From the NCBI GenBank assembly GCA_947585115.1, contig CANPWW010000014.1, positions 1 to 41,284 of the forward strand: a DNA stretch of 41,284 nt, in the 5' to 3' direction. Positions 110 through 40,137 of the stretch are shown here, piece by piece. The DNA comes from an uncultured Monoglobus sp. GTDB taxonomy: Bacteria; Bacillota; Clostridia; Monoglobales; Monoglobaceae. The position numbers and the translations under genes were made by a program. Numbering within the stretch: position 1 is the first letter of the stretch; the number at the start of each line of letters is the position of its first letter. The notes under the pieces were generated by a model. That model saw nothing but the letters and a program-made list of their open reading frames with translations, made no database searches and had not been told where the DNA came from.

Positions 110-144
110 CTAGTCGCTAGTCCCTATTCCATAGTCCCTACGTT
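110..144 (+). repeat. Five-heptamer element, copy A
   Basis: Five consecutive 7-bp units: CTAGTCG, CTAGTCC, CTATTCC, ATAGTCC, CTACGTT. It is one of five 35-bp elements in the window with this architecture and the terminal unit CTAYGTT. Its right 21 bp are inside the leftward permease gene and encode that protein's last residues NVGTME plus the TAG stop. Confidence 0.75.
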
Positions 145-1002
145 GGTATTGAGCAGCACTATCGCGGCGAAGATCAATATGATTCCCGCCGCGTTTTTTA
201 TTGTCAAGGATTCGTGAAAAATAATGATGCCGGCCAGGGCGGCGACCATAGGCTCCGCGAACGCCAGCACCGACGCCTTGCCCGCGTCGATATTGGCGAG
301 GCCTCCGGTATACAGAACAAACGGCAAAAACGTTGAAAACACGCCAAGACCCAGCGCGGCGGGCGCGCCTCCGTCCGCGATAACCGAGACGATATGGGGC
401 AGTCCCGAAAAAGGCAGCAGCCCCAGCGAGGCCACGGCGAAGGTATAAAATATGATAGTAAACTGAGAATATTTGCGAAGCGCGGCCTTGCCGAATATGC
501 TGTATAGGGCGTAGCCGAAACCCGATCCTATTCCTGTCATAAGCGCGAAAGCGCCGATCCGGCCGCCGGCGAATCCGCTTGCCAACGCGCTGCCCGCGAA
601 GGCGGGAACCAGCGCGATTATCTTTTGCGCTGTTATCTTCTCCCCGAAAAAAACGACGGACATCAGCATGACAAAACACGGCGCGGTATAGAGCAGCACC
701 GACGCCGCGGCAAGGGTCGTGCGCTCGATCGTCAGAAAATAGCACACGTTAAAAAACACTATGCTCAAAAGGCCGCTGCCCAAAAACATCCAAAAGTCGC
801 GGATGCGAACTTTGAGCAGCGAGCGGTCTTTTATCAAAAGAAACAGCCCCATAAGCGCTGCGGTGATCAGACTTCTGGTAAACGTTATCTGTATCGGGCT
901 AAGTCCGCGCGCGTCAAGCGGCCGCGAAAACACGCCGATAAGACCCCAGCCCGTCGCGGCCGCCAGGATCATCGCGGCGGATAAAGCCTTTTTGTCTTTC
1001 AT
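124..1002 (-). CDS. EamA-family drug/metabolite transporter (DMT) permease
   Basis: A 292-residue hydrophobic protein made of two tandem EamA repeats, about ten predicted transmembrane helices. Repeat 1 starts near residue 10 (WGLIGVFSRPL) and repeat 2 near 150 (GIGSGFGYALYSIFGKAAL). The second repeat ends in the typical EPMVAALAGIIIFHESLT segment. The family exports or imports small metabolites across the cytoplasmic membrane; the substrate cannot be read from sequence. The start is supported by GGAGG (complement of 1010-1014) and a perfect promoter at 1055-1083. It is transcribed alone, divergently from yunB. Oddity: the last six residues and the stop codon lie in heptamer repeat copy A, so the native C-terminus has probably been replaced by repeat DNA. 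Confidence 0.9.
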   Translation of the reverse strand: MKDKKALSAAMILAAATGWGLIGVFSRPLDARGLSPIQITFTRSLITAALMGLFLLIKDRSLLKVRIRDFWMFLGSGLLSIVFFNVCYFLTIERTTLAAASVLLYTAPCFVMLMSVVFFGEKITAQKIIALVPAFAGSALASGFAGGRIGAFALMTGIGSGFGYALYSIFGKAALRKYSQFTIIFYTFAVASLGLLPFSGLPHIVSVIADGGAPAALGLGVFSTFLPFVLYTGGLANIDAGKASVLAFAEPMVAALAGIIIFHESLTIKNAAGIILIFAAIVLLNTNVGTME

Positions 1003-23413: not shown

Positions 23414-23490
23414 CCCACCTCCGTCTTTTCGCCTTTGGCGAAAATCCACCTCCTCCCGGGATGAGGCAGGCGGGCGGATAATATCCGCCC
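23414..23490. repeat. REP-like palindromes upstream of argS
   Basis: TTTTCGCC (23426-23433) pairs with GGCGAAAA (23437-23444) over a 3-nt loop. A 19-bp palindrome, GGGCGGATA-A-TATCCGCCC, is at 23472-23490 and recurs exactly at 30503-30521. The stretch also has pyrimidine-rich CCACCTCC repeats. These resemble dispersed non-coding repeats common in gut Clostridia (from memory, not searched). Confidence 0.65.
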
Positions 23491-23495
23491 CTACG

Positions 23496-23530
23496 AACAT
23501 AGTGATTAGTAATTAGCTAATAGTGATTAG
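23496..23530 (-). repeat. Five-heptamer element, copy B (inverted)
   Basis: Read on the minus strand: CTAATCA, CTATTAG, CTAATTA, CTAATCA, CTATGTT. It is inverted relative to copy C at 23580-23614, with 28 of 35 positions matching. The two copies therefore act as terminal inverted repeats of a 119-bp unit. An inner stem, ACGCGG (23539-23544) with CCGCGT (23576-23581), extends the hairpin. Confidence 0.75.
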
Positions 23531-23579
23531 ACGAAAGAACGCGGGGATATATGTTATGTTTTCGATAACTTTTTTCCGC

Positions 23580-23614
23580 GTATTCACTATTCGCTAATCG
23601 CTAATCTCTACGTT
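23580..23614 (+). repeat. Five-heptamer element, copy C
   Basis: Units GTATTCA, CTATTCG, CTAATCG, CTAATCT, CTACGTT. The right 21 bp overlap the 3' end of the leftward ywiB-like gene and encode its last residues NVEISD and the TAG stop. The frame and stop position relative to the element are the same as in copy A. Confidence 0.75.
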
Positions 23615-24016
23615 AACCGTCATGTTGTTTTTTATAAAATTTTGGTTGTCGGCGTCCAGGAGGTAGTTCATTTTGAGAGTGCCGCCGTCCTTGCCGAATT
23701 TGTAGTCGATGTTTTCGGTCGTTACCGCGGCGCCGATCTGGCCGTAGGGTGTGTTCACCAAGCACAGGCTCTTTTCGCCGCTTCTGTAATCCATCTTTGA
23801 CGAGAACCTGCCCTTTCGCGAAACGCTGACTCCGGCGTCGCTGACCTTTATTGTGGTGGTCGTGTCCTCAAAACCGGTCATGGCGCTCTCGTCGTATATT
23901 ATGTATATTTTGTTGTTACGTATGGCGTATCTGCCTCTGGTGTCCAGAGCTATGGTTTCTTCCTCGCCGTCGATCTCCTGAGCGGTGCGAATGGTAATAA
24001 ACGCGTTGTCTTTCAT
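23594..24016 (-). CDS. ywiB: DUF1934 (YwiB-like) protein
   Basis: A 140-residue lipocalin-like beta-barrel protein of the YwiB/DUF1934 family: AFITIRTAQEIDGEEETIALDTRGRYAIRNNKIYIIYDES, then TTIKVSDAGVSVSRKGRFSSKMDYRSGEKSLCLVNTPYGQI and the DYKFGKDGGTLKMNYLLDAD segment. The function is unknown. It lies between murI and argS; a ywiB-argS pairing also occurs in B. subtilis. It is 14 nt downstream of murI, with AAGGAGAC as ribosome binding site. The six C-terminal residues (NVEISD) and the stop come from heptamer copy C, so the native end is probably altered. Confidence 0.85.
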   Translation of the reverse strand: MKDNAFITIRTAQEIDGEEETIALDTRGRYAIRNNKIYIIYDESAMTGFEDTTTTIKVSDAGVSVSRKGRFSSKMDYRSGEKSLCLVNTPYGQIGAAVTTENIDYKFGKDGGTLKMNYLLDADNQNFIKNNMTVNVEISD

Positions 24017-30499: not shown

Positions 30500-30502
30500 T
30501 AC

Positions 30503-30637
30503 GGGCGGATAATATCCGCCCTGCGGGACGTACCCTACAACAAGTATTGCGCCAAATTCGTAGGGGACGGCGCCCTCGACGTTCCATAAGGCGCCCCCTC
30601 GGGGGAGCTGTCGGGCTTTGCCCGACTGAGGGGGGAA
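30503..30637. repeat. Composite REP-like repeat block inside the polyamine cluster
   Basis: It starts with the 19-bp palindrome GGGCGGATA-A-TATCCGCCC (30503-30521, identical to 23472-23490). A GTAGGGGACGGCGCCCTC segment follows. Then comes a CCCCCTCGGGGG stretch with the hairpin GTCGGGC-TTT-GCCCGAC, and ACTGAGGGGGGAA joined to heptamers at 30638. This has the same architecture as 77-110. No gene is present in 30500-30685. Confidence 0.75.
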
Positions 30638-30672
30638 CTATTTACTAATCACTAATCGCTAATAACTACGTT
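30638..30672 (+). repeat. Five-heptamer element, copy D
   Basis: Units CTATTTA, CTAATCA, CTAATCG, CTAATAA, CTACGTT. The last unit is followed at once by AGGAGG (30673-30678), the ribosome binding site of the carboxynorspermidine synthase gene. The element boundary therefore coincides with the start of the translation signal, exactly as in copy E. Confidence 0.8.
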
Positions 30673-30685
30673 AGGAGGAAATCAA

Positions 30686-31903
30686 ATGAGCAGAGCTTTA
30701 ATTATCGGAGCCGGCGGAGTTGCCGGTGTGGCCGCGCACAAGTGCTGCCAAAATTACGAGGTGTTCACCGACATCATGATAGCTAGCCGCACCAAGTCAA
30801 AGTGCGACAGGCTCAAACAGAGCTGTGAGGAATACATGAAAAAAATCGGCGGCAAGACCAATATCGAGACCGCGCGCGTTGATGCCGACAACGTTGACGA
30901 ACTGACCGGGCTTATCGGAATGTACCGCCCCGAGATCGTTATAAACCTGGCCCTGCCTTATCAGGACTTGTCGATCATGGACGCGTGCCTGAGATCGGGC
31001 GTCCACTATCTTGACACCGCCAATTATGAGCCTCCCGACACGGCGAAATTTGAGTATAAATGGCAATGGGCCTACCGCGAAAAGTTCGAAAAAGCGGGAT
31101 TGACCGCGATCTTGGGCAGCGGCTTTGACCCGGGCGTGACCGGAGTTTTTTCGGCGTATGCCATGAAACACGAGTTTGACGAGATAAATTATATAGATAT
31201 TTTAGACTGCAACGGCGGCGACCACGGCTACCCGTTCGCCACCAACTTCAACCCGGAAATAAACATCCGTGAGGTGTCGGCCAACGGCAGCTATTGGGAA
31301 AACGGAAAATGGATCGAGACAAAGCCGATGGAGATCAAGCGCGAGTATGACTTTGAGGGTGTGGGAAAAAAGGACATGTATCTGCTGCACCACGAGGAAC
31401 TGGAGTCGCTGGGCCTCAACATCAAAGGCATAAAGCGCATACGGTTCTTTATGACCTTCGGCCAAAGCTATCTGACGCATTTAAAATGTCTCGAGAATGT
31501 GGGCATGACCTCGATCAAGCCTATTATGTATGAGGGCAAGGAGATAGTTCCGCTGCAGTTTTTGAAGGCCGTGCTGCCCGACCCGGCTTCGCTGGGCCCG
31601 AGAACGGTGGGCAAGACCAACATCGGCTGCATATTCCGCGGCAAAAAGGACGGCAAAGATAAGAACTATTATTTATATAACATCTGCGACCATCAGGAGT
31701 GCTACAAAGAAGTCGGCTCGCAGGCGGTTTCATACACGACCGGAGTGCCCGCCATGATAGGCGCGGCTATGGTACTTACCGGAAAGTGGAAAAAGCCCGG
31801 CGTCTATAACGTTGAGGAAATGGACCCCGACCCGTTCATGGACAGCCTCAACAAGTTCGGCCTCCCATGGAAAGAGAACCGAGATCCCGTATTGGTGGAT
31901 TAA
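30686..31903 (+). CDS. Carboxynorspermidine synthase (saccharopine dehydrogenase family)
   Basis: A 405-residue NAD(P)-dependent enzyme. The Rossmann motif is ALIIGAGGVAGVAAHKC at residues 4-20. It continues IMIASRTKSKCDRLK, NLALPYQDLSIMDACLRSGVHYLDTANYEPPD and ILGSGFDPGVTGVFSAYA, the carboxynorspermidine/carboxyspermidine dehydrogenase (CASDH) branch rather than true saccharopine dehydrogenase. It condenses putrescine (or diaminopropane) with aspartate semialdehyde; NspC then decarboxylates the product to spermidine. nspC, its usual neighbour, is absent here. AGGAGG abuts heptamer repeat copy D. It stays co-directional with speE-speB after a 186-nt repeat block. Confidence 0.85.
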   Translation: MSRALIIGAGGVAGVAAHKCCQNYEVFTDIMIASRTKSKCDRLKQSCEEYMKKIGGKTNIETARVDADNVDELTGLIGMYRPEIVINLALPYQDLSIMDACLRSGVHYLDTANYEPPDTAKFEYKWQWAYREKFEKAGLTAILGSGFDPGVTGVFSAYAMKHEFDEINYIDILDCNGGDHGYPFATNFNPEINIREVSANGSYWENGKWIETKPMEIKREYDFEGVGKKDMYLLHHEELESLGLNIKGIKRIRFFMTFGQSYLTHLKCLENVGMTSIKPIMYEGKEIVPLQFLKAVLPDPASLGPRTVGKTNIGCIFRGKKDGKDKNYYLYNICDHQECYKEVGSQAVSYTTGVPAMIGAAMVLTGKWKKPGVYNVEEMDPDPFMDSLNKFGLPWKENRDPVLVD

Positions 31904-35703: not shown

Positions 35704-35738
35704 CTAATCACTATTCACTAATTACTAATCACTACGTT
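35704..35738 (+). repeat. Five-heptamer element, copy E
   Basis: Units CTAATCA, CTATTCA, CTAATTA, CTAATCA, CTACGTT. AGGAGG (35739-35744) follows without a gap and the ATG is at 35752. This is the same junction as in copy D upstream of an unrelated gene. The left flank differs from copies A and D: no G-tract or hairpin. Confidence 0.8.
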
Positions 35739-35751
35739 AGGAGGTAAAATT

Positions 35752-38700
35752 ATGAAAAAAAGGTTATTGAGTATCGCTATTTCGCTGTGTATGGTGATAA
35801 CAGCGCTGCCGGTTTTCGCAGTTGGCGAAGCTGAGGACGGCACAGCGAATGCCTCGGCTGATCTCGCGGCAAGACAAATGGAGTACCTGAATCGCGGCGG
35901 ATTCGCGGCGAACTTGACCTATGGCGGCGGAGTTTATTTAAGCTGGCGCCTTTTGGGCACCGAGCCGATGGACACGACGTTTAACGTTTACAAAAACGGC
36001 GCGGTTTTGGTTGAGAGCTATGAGCTTACAAATTACACCGACCCGGCGGGAACGGCGGATGACAAATATTCCGTCGCGCCTGTAATAGGCGGCGTCGAGG
36101 GTGCGAAAAGCGAAGAGTTCCCGATGCTGAACGGAATTCGAGACAAGGATTGGAAAAATTCGCCCTACGCCTATTTTGACATTCCCGTGCAGATACCGCC
36201 GCTTAACACTGCCAAAAGCTATGAGGCAAACGATGCCTCGGTGGGTGATGTGGACGGCGACGGCGAATACGAGATAATACTCAAATGGGAACCCGATGAC
36301 GCCAAAGACAGCGCCTCCGGCGGTGTCACCGACCGCGTGTATCTTGACTGCTATGAGATGGACGGCACAATGCTTTGGCGGATCGATCTGGGCAGAAACA
36401 TCAGAGCCGGCCAGCACTACACTCAGTTTCAGGTTTTTGATTATGACGGAGACGGCAAGGCCGAGATGGCGGTCAAGACTGCGCCCGGCTCGATCGACGG
36501 CAGGGGCAACTATGTGTCCGACGCGGGAAACACCGATGAGATCAGGAATACCAACAACGAGGCGAGCTATATAGGTTCAAACGGCCACATAACGGGCGGC
36601 CCCGAGTATCTCACCATATTTAACGGAGAGAGCGGCGCGGCAATGCAGACGATAAACTATCACGCGCCGGTCGGAAACGTGCGCGACTGGGGAGACAGCG
36701 ATTATAACCGTTCGGACAGATATTTGGCGGGAACCGCGTATCTTGACGGCGTGCATCCCAGCCTGATCGAGTGCCGCGGATATTACGGAAAATCCGTTGT
36801 GGCCGCTTATACGTGGGACGGAAAAGACCTCAAGCAGAGCTGGATCATAGACAGCACAAGCAATTCTGACAATGATTTCTACGGTCAGGGCAATCATAAC
36901 CTTTCGGTCGCAGACCTTGATAACGACGGCAAAGACGAGATAATTTACGGCTCGGCGGCGCTTGACGACAACGGCAAAGTCTTGTGGTCGGCAAAGAACT
37001 CAAGCGGCAGAAAGCTGGGCCACGGCGACGCGCTGCACGTGTCCGACTTTGACAACGACGGTGAGCAGGAAGTTTTCAAAGTCCTCGAGGACAGCCCGAC
37101 GTGGGGCAGAGTGTTCATAAACGGCTCCGATGGCAAGATCATCTGGTACGAGACCACCACCGGCGACGACGGCCGAGGCATCATGGACTATTTCAGCAAG
37201 CAGTACGGCGTGCTGGCATGGGACTCCGGCCTTAACACCAGAACTATGAGCGGCGAGATAGTTAATTTCGGTTCATACAACTCGAGAAATGAGTTGGTCA
37301 CCGTGCAGGACGGACAATATCCCAACTTTGCGATCTATTGGGACGGCGATCTGTGCAGAGAGCATTTCAGCGAAGGCAGACTGAGCAAATGGAACGACGG
37401 CGAATATAGGGTAAATGACTACAATAAACAGCCCGCTTTTGATAAAAACGGCGATCCGTTGATAAACAAGGGCGGTCTCAGCCGTCTCTGGTCGACATGG
37501 ACTTCAAATCCCGTTTCTACAAACAACAGCACCAAAGCCGTTCCCTGCCTTCAGGCGGATCTGTTCGGCGACTGGCGCGAGGAGCTTGTGCTGAGGCACA
37601 GCGACAATACCGCGTTGAGAGTGTTCACATCACTTACGCCCAGCGATTATAAATTCACAACGTTTATGCACGACAGCCAGTACCGCTGCGCTATAGCATG
37701 GCAGAACACCGCGTATAACCAGCCGCCTCACCAGAGCTATTATATCGGCTATGATAAAAAAGGTGATTATGTTCAGCCGAATATCTATGTCAAGGATCTT
37801 GATCCAGAGGTTGTGTTCACCGTGACGGATACTGCCGGCAATCCCGCGGCGGGCGTCAGCGTGAGCATCGGCGAAACATCCAAGGTCACGGACAAAGACG
37901 GCGTTGTCTCGCTCAGGATCCCGGCGGGAACATACACATACACGGCGGATTCCGAAAACTATAACGTTGTCACCGGCGAGATAACGGTCGCCTCAGGACA
38001 GACAAACACCAAATCTATCCGGCTCGTTGAGATCCCCGACAGCGTTATCACGGTAACAAGCGGCGGCAGCCCGGTGTCGGGCGCGGCGGTCACGATTAAC
38101 AAAAAGACCGTCAAGAGCGGAGCGGACGGCAAAATAACCATAAAGCTCCGCGCGGGCGAGTATGACTACACCGCCGTATGCCGCAAATATAACACAAAGA
38201 CAGACAAGCTGACGGTCGCCGAGAGCGGCTCGACCGATCTTTCAATCGAATTGGAAGCCATAGACTATGTATACGACAGCGATAAAGACACAAACGGCAG
38301 CAAATTCGTATACAGCGGCGACGGAGCCGCGCTTTCGTTCAGCGGCGGACAGTGGACCTTCAACCAGAACAGCACCGACGGCGGCAGAAAATTCGGCGGT
38401 GACTTTGACATGTCGGACGGCGGCAATATGACCTTTGAGATGACATACAACACAGGCGGCGTTAAGGACTCGTCAGGTGATTGGAAGTGGGCCGGAAGAG
38501 CGTATACCCACCACATTGAGTTCCTTGACTACTACGGCAAGGTTCTGCTGGGAATAAGCCAGGAATATAAGGAAACAGGCGCGCAGGAGGTTCAGTATTA
38601 TACCGGCACCAAGTCGAAAACCGCCGTTAAAACAGGAACGGTTGTCGGCGGCCCCAACATCACGGCCCGCAGCGCTTCGACATGGACGATAACGCTGAAC

Positions 38701-40137
38701 GCCGACCTTAAAAACAAAAAAGCCGAGCTGCGTCTTATGGACGAGGCGGGCGAAAACGGATATATAATCAGCGATATTCCGATCGACGTTACCTCGTTCT
38801 CAAGAGTTGAGATCGGCTCGACTGCCTCGGGCAATGTCACTTGGTCGCCCAGAGTCAGCAAGGTTCTCTATAAATCGGACTGCGTAAATAATTCGACGCC
38901 CGCGCCTCCGCCGCCAACGCTTGCCCCGACACCCACGCCCACTCCGATTCCCATGAAGGGTGAGACATGGAACTTCAATAATATAGACGAGGCGGCAACA
39001 TATGAAGACGGCGCGAAGATCGCAAACGAAAACGGAGAGTCGCTGACCGTGAACTATTCAACAAAAAATACGGCTCCATCAATTGCAAAGAGAGCCGACG
39101 GAGATAACTATTTCGCGATCAATGATAAGGGCGCCGGTCAGGACGGCTGGACATACACACCCGAAAGCCCGATCGACTCCGAGCTTATCGTAGTTGAAGA
39201 GGAGTTTAAAATGGGTGACGCCGATAAGGACACGGTACTGCTGAGATTATATGATAATAAGAACGCAAGCACGAGCAATACATATACCGATAAAAATGAC
39301 GGCAGAGCCTTTGAGATAAAGACCGGTTCGGGCAATCTGAAATTCAGTGATTACTTCTCAAAGGGAAGCAGCGACACCAAGGGCCTTGATCAGGACGTTT
39401 CGGGCTTTACCTTTGAAAAGGATAAGTGGTACGGTGTTAAAGTCGAATACGCCAAAGCGGATAACAGCGTGACGGTCTACACAAAGCCTGACGGCGGCGC
39501 GTATACCAAGAGAAACACGTTCACGCTCGGCTCCGGAACAACAACCAAAGGCGAGGTTCCGGCTTTGGCGCCCACCGGATTCGCGTGCTCCACGCGAGGA
39601 AGCGCGGCAAATGTCTTGGGAATTGACAATGTTTATATAGGTTACGCGGCAAGCGAGCCCGACCCGACTGCCACTCCGGGAACAGTTGAACCCACGGAGA
39701 CGCCGAGCGCAAGCGAGCCTACGGAGACACCGAGCGTAACCGAGCCTACGGAGACACCGTGCGTAACCGAGCCCACGGAGACGCCGAGCGCAAGTGAGCA
39801 GCCCGGCGAGACGCCGTCCGCGTCCGAGGCTCCAAAGCCGGAGTACGCCTACACGATCAACAGCGTGACGCCGTCGGTCGAGGGCGAGACGAGAAGCGTC
39901 AATGTGAACATCACAAAGAACTTTGACGCGGGCGATGATAATAAGCTGTTTGTCGCCTCATACAGTTCGGACGAGATAATGACCGCGGTAGGGCTCGATG
40001 ATATTGAGGCCGAGATCGGCGAGACGATTGATATAAACATCCCAATCGCGTACTTGGACGGCGACGTAGTGCTTGCCTATGTATGGAACGGCCTGAGCGA
40101 GATCAAGCCGCTCACGGACCCGTACAAAATGAAATAA
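35752..40137 (+). CDS. Large secreted rhamnogalacturonan lyase, PL11 family
   Basis: A 1461-residue paralogue of the preceding lyase, with a signal peptide ending near 24 (VITALPVFAVG). The PL11 domain spans ~45-668: RGGFAANLTYGGGVYLSWRLL, DVDGDGEYEIILKWEPDD, DNDGKDEIIYGSAAL, QPPHQSYYIGYD. Two regulatory-like beta domains follow (~686-757, ~764-835), then a ~200-residue unknown beta module (~838-1042). A Pro/Thr linker leads to a LamG-like module (~1073-1299) paired with that of the first lyase, a 9-residue repeat linker (~1313-1358) and the shared terminal module (~1364-1461, YAYTINSV...AYVWNGLSEIKPL). It lacks anchoring signals. AGGAGG abuts heptamer copy E. A terminator follows. Confidence 0.92.
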   Translation: MKKRLLSIAISLCMVITALPVFAVGEAEDGTANASADLAARQMEYLNRGGFAANLTYGGGVYLSWRLLGTEPMDTTFNVYKNGAVLVESYELTNYTDPAGTADDKYSVAPVIGGVEGAKSEEFPMLNGIRDKDWKNSPYAYFDIPVQIPPLNTAKSYEANDASVGDVDGDGEYEIILKWEPDDAKDSASGGVTDRVYLDCYEMDGTMLWRIDLGRNIRAGQHYTQFQVFDYDGDGKAEMAVKTAPGSIDGRGNYVSDAGNTDEIRNTNNEASYIGSNGHITGGPEYLTIFNGESGAAMQTINYHAPVGNVRDWGDSDYNRSDRYLAGTAYLDGVHPSLIECRGYYGKSVVAAYTWDGKDLKQSWIIDSTSNSDNDFYGQGNHNLSVADLDNDGKDEIIYGSAALDDNGKVLWSAKNSSGRKLGHGDALHVSDFDNDGEQEVFKVLEDSPTWGRVFINGSDGKIIWYETTTGDDGRGIMDYFSKQYGVLAWDSGLNTRTMSGEIVNFGSYNSRNELVTVQDGQYPNFAIYWDGDLCREHFSEGRLSKWNDGEYRVNDYNKQPAFDKNGDPLINKGGLSRLWSTWTSNPVSTNNSTKAVPCLQADLFGDWREELVLRHSDNTALRVFTSLTPSDYKFTTFMHDSQYRCAIAWQNTAYNQPPHQSYYIGYDKKGDYVQPNIYVKDLDPEVVFTVTDTAGNPAAGVSVSIGETSKVTDKDGVVSLRIPAGTYTYTADSENYNVVTGEITVASGQTNTKSIRLVEIPDSVITVTSGGSPVSGAAVTINKKTVKSGADGKITIKLRAGEYDYTAVCRKYNTKTDKLTVAESGSTDLSIELEAIDYVYDSDKDTNGSKFVYSGDGAALSFSGGQWTFNQNSTDGGRKFGGDFDMSDGGNMTFEMTYNTGGVKDSSGDWKWAGRAYTHHIEFLDYYGKVLLGISQEYKETGAQEVQYYTGTKSKTAVKTGTVVGGPNITARSASTWTITLNADLKNKKAELRLMDEAGENGYIISDIPIDVTSFSRVEIGSTASGNVTWSPRVSKVLYKSDCVNNSTPAPPPPTLAPTPTPTPIPMKGETWNFNNIDEAATYEDGAKIANENGESLTVNYSTKNTAPSIAKRADGDNYFAINDKGAGQDGWTYTPESPIDSELIVVEEEFKMGDADKDTVLLRLYDNKNASTSNTYTDKNDGRAFEIKTGSGNLKFSDYFSKGSSDTKGLDQDVSGFTFEKDKWYGVKVEYAKADNSVTVYTKPDGGAYTKRNTFTLGSGTTTKGEVPALAPTGFACSTRGSAANVLGIDNVYIGYAASEPDPTATPGTVEPTETPSASEPTETPSVTEPTETPCVTEPTETPSASEQPGETPSASEAPKPEYAYTINSVTPSVEGETRSVNVNITKNFDAGDDNKLFVASYSSDEIMTAVGLDDIEAEIGETIDINIPIAYLDGDVVLAYVWNGLSEIKPLTDPYKMK
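39688..39825 (+). repeat. 27-bp in-frame tandem repeat coding a Pro/Thr/Glu linker
   Basis: Four 9-codon units EPTETP-(S/C)-(A/V)-(S/T) at 39688, 39715, 39742 and 39769, then a variant EQPGETPSAS to 39825. It encodes a flexible linker between the LamG-like and terminal modules of the second lyase. One unit carries an unusual Cys. Confidence 0.9.

Follow-up and report, generated by a model that had tools for sequence, protein, structure and literature searches.

The heptamers that close the EamA-family permease gene at the start of the analysed window (the whole 41,284 nucleotide stretch) are, with a probability of roughly three in four, one copy of a dispersed, polar and degenerate heptamer repeat that stops genes in three frames, replaces their tails and has spread by insertion. 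Five arrays of this family lie within the window, one of them an inverted variant. The EamA gene (124-1002, minus strand; Pfam EamA, E 2.6e-46) has its last six codons and stop (124-144) within the array at 110-144 (plus strand), which reads CTAGTCG CTAGTCC CTATTCC ATAGTCC CTACGTT. The gene takes its 3' end from the CTACGTT side of the array, and the heptamer second from the gene is mutated (ATAGTCC). The last three heptamers, CTATTCC ATAGTCC CTACGTT at 124-144, are read on the minus strand as AAC GTA GGG ACT ATG GAA TAG, giving NVGTME*. The original prediction took 124-144 as the element at this site; the full array has five heptamers and spans 110-144.

The second capped gene (23594-24016, minus strand) matches Pfam DUF1934 (E 1.9e-32, match spanning 7-133 of 140) and presumably encodes a YwiB-like protein. 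Its last six codons and stop (23594-23614) fall within the array GTATTCA CTATTCG CTAATCG CTAATCT CTACGTT (23580-23614, plus strand), and the minus strand AAC GTA GAG ATT AGC GAT TAG gives NVEISD*. The prediction that the repeat gives the last six codons and the stop of both genes, with TAG as the complement of the CTA in the third heptamer and the same frame relative to the element, agrees with both sequences. In the DUF1934-argS spacer an inverted array ending in CTATGTT (23496-23530, minus strand) points away from the first one. A core with CGCGG...CCGCG ends, read directly from the sequence and assigned to neither strand, lies between these two opposite arrays (23540-23580, within 23496-23614). 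Such a pair could correspond to the terminal inverted repeats of a MITE, but many other arrays have no inverted partner in view. The remaining two arrays (30638-30672 and 35704-35738, both plus strand) are found immediately 5' of AGGAGG and a start codon, at 30686 and 35752 respectively. The large ORF that begins at 35752 (35752-40137) also contains a 27-bp tandem repeat of about 3.7 copies (39694-39793) encoding a Thr/Pro/Glu-rich linker.

The heptamer arrays are a genome-wide dispersed family with an abundance far above chance. Allowing one mismatch at most, CTANTNNCTANTNNCTA has 15 matches in the window against 0.23 expected. In the whole Monoglobus-type gut genome to which the window belongs (2.34 Mb in 125 contigs) the count is 395 against 2 for the reversed control, and CTANTNNCTACGTT is found 119 times against 0 for its reversed control. 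The anatomy was determined from 100 arrays: 99 of the 119 CTANTNNCTACGTT matches, taken from 100 listed places after sites with less than 60 nt of right flank or a repeated context had been dropped, and the EamA array, added separately because its mutated unit misses the pattern. The consensus is roughly (CTANTCN)4-CTACGTT, typically of five units (35 bp), with about 120 copies in the genome. Five heptamers were found in 59 arrays, four in 19, two in 10, three in 8 and six in 4. The variation within CTANTCN units is located at positions 4 and 7, according to position counts over the 100 arrays. Two blends recurred when the arrays were compared by eye, CTAATCN CTATTCN CTAATCN CTAATCN CTACGTT and CTAGTCC CTAGNNC CTATTYC CTAGTCC CTACGTT.

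Successive heptamers place the same bases in each frame in turn, and CTA reads TAG on the complementary strand. Because seven equals one modulo three and nearly every unit has CTA, the frame decides in which of the first three heptamers TAG is met. Read from the CTACGTT side, 89 of the 100 arrays leave no frame open across 35 nt; from the opposite side the number is 10, and the control gave 353 of 20,000 random 35-mers from the window. CTA is present at 71-92% per base even in heptamers 1-3, which the search pattern leaves unconstrained. Entry in frame 0 gives NVxxxx*, while the other two frames end at the second or first heptamer.

All three frames are used by genes that end at arrays. The 17 gene ends first scored divide into 6, 6 and 5, and a wider rule raised the count to 19, with 12 stops inside the array, five stop codons completed by the first bases of the array and two stops just before it. 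The 12 internal stops fall in the third heptamer in six cases, the second in two and the first in four. Genes were called with a codon-bias score trained on 25 window ORFs judged to be genes, rather than with a gene finder. The NVxxxx* end common to the two window genes means no more than that both use frame 0, which is one of the three observed. Any two capped genes would share a frame by chance once in three, and the shared frame of these two is attributed to chance because all three frames occur among capped genes. The same-frame claim is accordingly true for both genes but carries no significance, and the shared frame was rejected as a meaningful property. The original prediction had proposed looking for further NVxxxx ends in the proteome; among the scored arrays of this genome the additional frame-0 ends are NVETRK (twice), NVGTRE and NVVIRK. 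With CTA in nearly every unit, a heptamer repeat yields both the stop-codon cassette and the common frame as by-products.

The array-coded C-termini differ from those of array-less orthologues. EamA proteins with the array end in VLLNTNVGTxx* in five genomes (the window's own, G009, G011, G002 and G004), while those without it end in VLLNIPLGKKEKTSG or VLLNIPLGKSKKTSG (G006, G010 and G003) or in VLLNIKFKNFGK (G005). DUF1934 proteins with the array end in MTVNVEIxx in nine genomes; array-less ends are MTVTVTKEK* (G007), MTVTVRTDSVTESKSEIN (G008) and MTIKVTAQNQNI (G001), and other genera end otherwise. In both families the orthologues diverge exactly from the AACGTAG boundary on. The original prediction had proposed this alignment as its check, and in neither protein do array-less orthologues share the array-coded terminal residues. 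The change in DUF1934 falls outside the Pfam match. Between DUF1934 and argS the spacer is 43-58 nt long in two genomes lacking the array and 190-405 nt in eight that have it.

The picture is the same for six further capped genes, whose array-coded ends are missing from array-less orthologues. Four of these carry Pfam names, a nitroreductase (L238), a DUF3737 protein (L275), a thioesterase (L263) and a transglycosylase-domain protein (L047); the other two (L036 and L042) were compared with a subset of relatives, the orthologue searches having covered the two window genes and the four named here. Capped genes at L033, L239 and L270 (two genes) lie outside the comparison, and L274 has no clearly array-less relative. 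The loose array flag used for the orthologue rows gives chance matches (e.g. L085, L114, L315) as well as misses, and the rows were judged by eye. Two near-exceptions were seen: the array tail NVETRK has three residues in common with the native NIAFRK, and the nitroreductase end EVVISD of G009 resembles the native EVIVTD of G001. In L047 the native YE* is lengthened to YERSD* and not replaced. No displaced native tails were seen behind the cassette in the array and array-less pairs compared, which may reflect replacement or later decay, the identities being too low to tell these apart.

The arrays are polar with respect to genes. The CTACGTT end adjoins a gene in 36 of the 100 arrays (19 gene ends and 17 starts with a Shine-Dalgarno sequence) and the opposite end in 2, a count conditioned on an intact CTACGTT end. 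The description of the repeat as a portable stop-codon cassette capping 3' ends is right in that it stops genes and gives them array-coded ends, but the repeat is not specifically a 3' cap, since starts are met nearly as often (17 against 19). What stands out more is the fixed end that faces genes, combined with stops that are asymmetric between the strands.

These contacts can also be read differently, with the arrays as regulatory sequence beside genes, either a binding site at the DNA or RNA level or a leader preceding the Shine-Dalgarno sequence, and the overlap with gene ends as incidental. This reading is possible, if on the unlikely side. It accords with the 17 arrays directly 5' of a Shine-Dalgarno sequence and start codon, and with the 30500 site, where the array before AGGAGG is kept in 7 of 7 aligned relatives while the modules on its far side come and go. 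The invariance of the gene-proximal heptamers, synonymous sites included, points the same way. At the DUF1934 site, 140 pairwise site comparisons among five close genomes gave 0 differences in the two heptamers next to the gene; the differences amount to 19, 29 and 37% in heptamers 3, 4 and 5, and to 20% at third codon positions of the gene. At the EamA site the corresponding values are 0 of 70 for the first heptamer, 6% for the second, 10-14% for the others and 24% for third codon positions. This invariance, in five genomes and at two sites, suggests constraint at the DNA level rather than the peptide level, or homogenisation. Against a regulatory role, 64 of the 100 arrays touch no gene in the author's scoring, and the sequence is missing from one genome of the genus. 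From heptamer 3 onward the DUF1934 site (L061-L069) is hypervariable, the first base differing in 80-90% of pairs.

The side away from CTACGTT is occupied by hairpin modules, CGCGG cores or the end of an IS-like element. Positions 1-76 of the window are such an end, of a multi-copy element with 14 copies (L223-L236) in 4 of the 12 genus genomes. An array follows the IS-like end in every copy, always in the same orientation, and contigs break there. The window copy has a hairpin module between the element end and the array. The start of the IS-like ORF was seen only as a fragment at one contig end, and may resemble an IS3-family OrfA; a search for the element body in the window's own genome gave one contig end only. 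A 30-bp stretch resembling the IS end, together with its array, lies in G004 beside an ORF that by eye looks like a serine recombinase (L226, 1500-3030). The spacers also share other high-copy modules, GTAGGGGCGGATATTATCCGCCC hairpins (which look REP-like), GGCTCCCC..TGTC-hairpin-GACTGAGGGG and CGCGG..CCGCG cores. They occur at 30500-30637, 77-109 and 23480-23580 in the window and at many loci elsewhere, and form mosaics that are gained and lost between species at conserved gene junctions.

It is quite unlikely that the arrays are terminal parts, or solo ends, of this IS-like element as a larger transposon and have spread along with it. The element end does lie at the non-CTACGTT side of the array in every one of the 14 copies found in four genomes. 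However, the element is found in 4 of the 12 genus genomes and arrays in 11, a hairpin module intervenes in the window copy, and hairpin modules take the same side elsewhere. The arrays may equally be the target of the element, whose body was not recovered. An origin in place by tandem slippage at gene ends, without insertion, is highly improbable, for although native and array tails partly resemble each other in two genes and the number and sequence of units vary between species at one site, a 35-bp pattern with a fixed CTACGTT end recurs at about 120 places, mostly outside genes; the dispersed copies refute slippage for the whole family, and local changes in unit number may still arise by it.

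CTANTNNCTANTNNCTACGTT is present in 11 of the 12 genus genomes, the window's own included, and is missing from one complete genome (G008); it was also found in 2 of 48 more distant relatives, with 43 matches in G017 and 4 in G030. An exact 21-mer gave 82 stretches across 84,980 species genomes, a scan that may leave out records of the window's own genome. Among the 21-mer loci listed, every title but one names a Monoglobus or Clostridia bin from 'Lapin' samples; the exception is a Cytophagales metagenome-assembled genome (L183), whose lone short array was taken as chance. Carriage by viruses was rejected, the 21-mer, a degenerate 28-mer and the IS-like end all giving 0 matches in viral_contigs.

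The heptamer repeat was probably once mobile. The portability claimed in the original prediction is suggested by the roughly 120 dispersed copies and by orthologous sites with and without arrays, but no transposase was found, and no target duplication, as would mark a MITE, was found in flanks that are complex mosaics. Among 914 flank pairs, 144 were array-less by a loose pattern; 11 chosen for small gaps were examined, and no clean occupied and empty pair at over 97% identity was found. Some of the 'empty' sites carry other repeat modules. Mobilisation by a REP-associated tyrosine transposase was rejected, as the Y1 transposase family (PF01797) has no match in the window's own genome and in the genus only in G003 and G006. 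The array at the 30500 site is present in all seven aligned relatives, and many copies are therefore old and mostly inherited. At the 35704 site another repeat lies within the array in two genomes, and the pair L200 and L010 looks like a product of array-to-array recombination.

Insertion of a polar repeat would account for these patterns as follows. The CTACGTT end is fixed and faces genes, and the variable end faces other repeat modules. Where the fixed end lies in the 3' end of a gene, translation reads AACGTAG and then meets TAG in one of the first three heptamers. The gene is thereby closed within seven codons, and its native tail replaced, or in one case lengthened, by array-coded residues. 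Insertion would have spread the copies, the repeat most likely being a non-autonomous mobile sequence, and copies in 3' gene ends may survive since the element terminates harmlessly in that direction. A more far-reaching version, unlikely as a whole, is that CTACGTT is a docking end of a polar mobile repeat: set against genes and with stops only in the direction in which genes read into it, the repeat may be adapted to gene ends as sites where it does little damage while rewriting C-termini genus-wide, and its other end may be a landing and recombination site for the IS-like element and the hairpin modules.

The arrays are a compact example from nature of an intergenic repeat that has altered how unrelated proteins end. 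As a single genus offers orthologues with and without arrays for comparison, small repeats as a source of new C-termini become testable. No description of this repeat in Monoglobus was found in the literature (open-licence PMC articles).

Three known systems can be compared. The heptameric short tandemly repeated repetitive (STRR) sequences of cyanobacteria are degenerate heptamers between genes. By description they share both properties with the Monoglobus arrays; the phylum differs and the unit sequences are uncompared. The REP/BIME mosaics with REP-associated tyrosine transposases, as far as the excerpted source describes them (PMC2817692), are likewise high-copy modular intergenic mosaics. 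In contrast to these, the heptamer array is not palindromic, and the window's own genome lacks a match to the Y1 transposase family.

The closest resemblance is to the TAACTGA heptamer direct repeats of Beggiatoaceae, some Cyanobacteria and Bacteroidetes, as described in the excerpts of MacGregor (2015, PMC4679880) used here. In one orientation these have stops in all three frames, and sets of them overlap upstream stop codons; the Monoglobus arrays likewise stop three frames one way (89 against 10 of 100) and overlap stop codons (12 of 100 inside the array, and five completed by it). According to the same excerpts, most TAACTGA sets are found just upstream of start codons, a role as regulatory sequence beside genes is proposed, and the repeats are possibly mobile by no evident mechanism. 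The Monoglobus material bears on how heptamer repeats spread, a question left open there. The differences from what these excerpts report are in unit and position. The Monoglobus unit is the degenerate CTANTCN, whereas the TAACTGA unit is repeated unchanged, and one terminal Monoglobus unit (CTACGTT) is fixed and faces the gene. Only 17 of 100 Monoglobus arrays, not a majority, lie upstream of starts, and there the Shine-Dalgarno sequence follows directly after the array, while canonical ribosome-binding sites are reportedly rare at the TAACTGA repeats. Judged against these excerpts, the Monoglobus family works like the TAACTGA repeats but by unit sequence and position is not a member of them.
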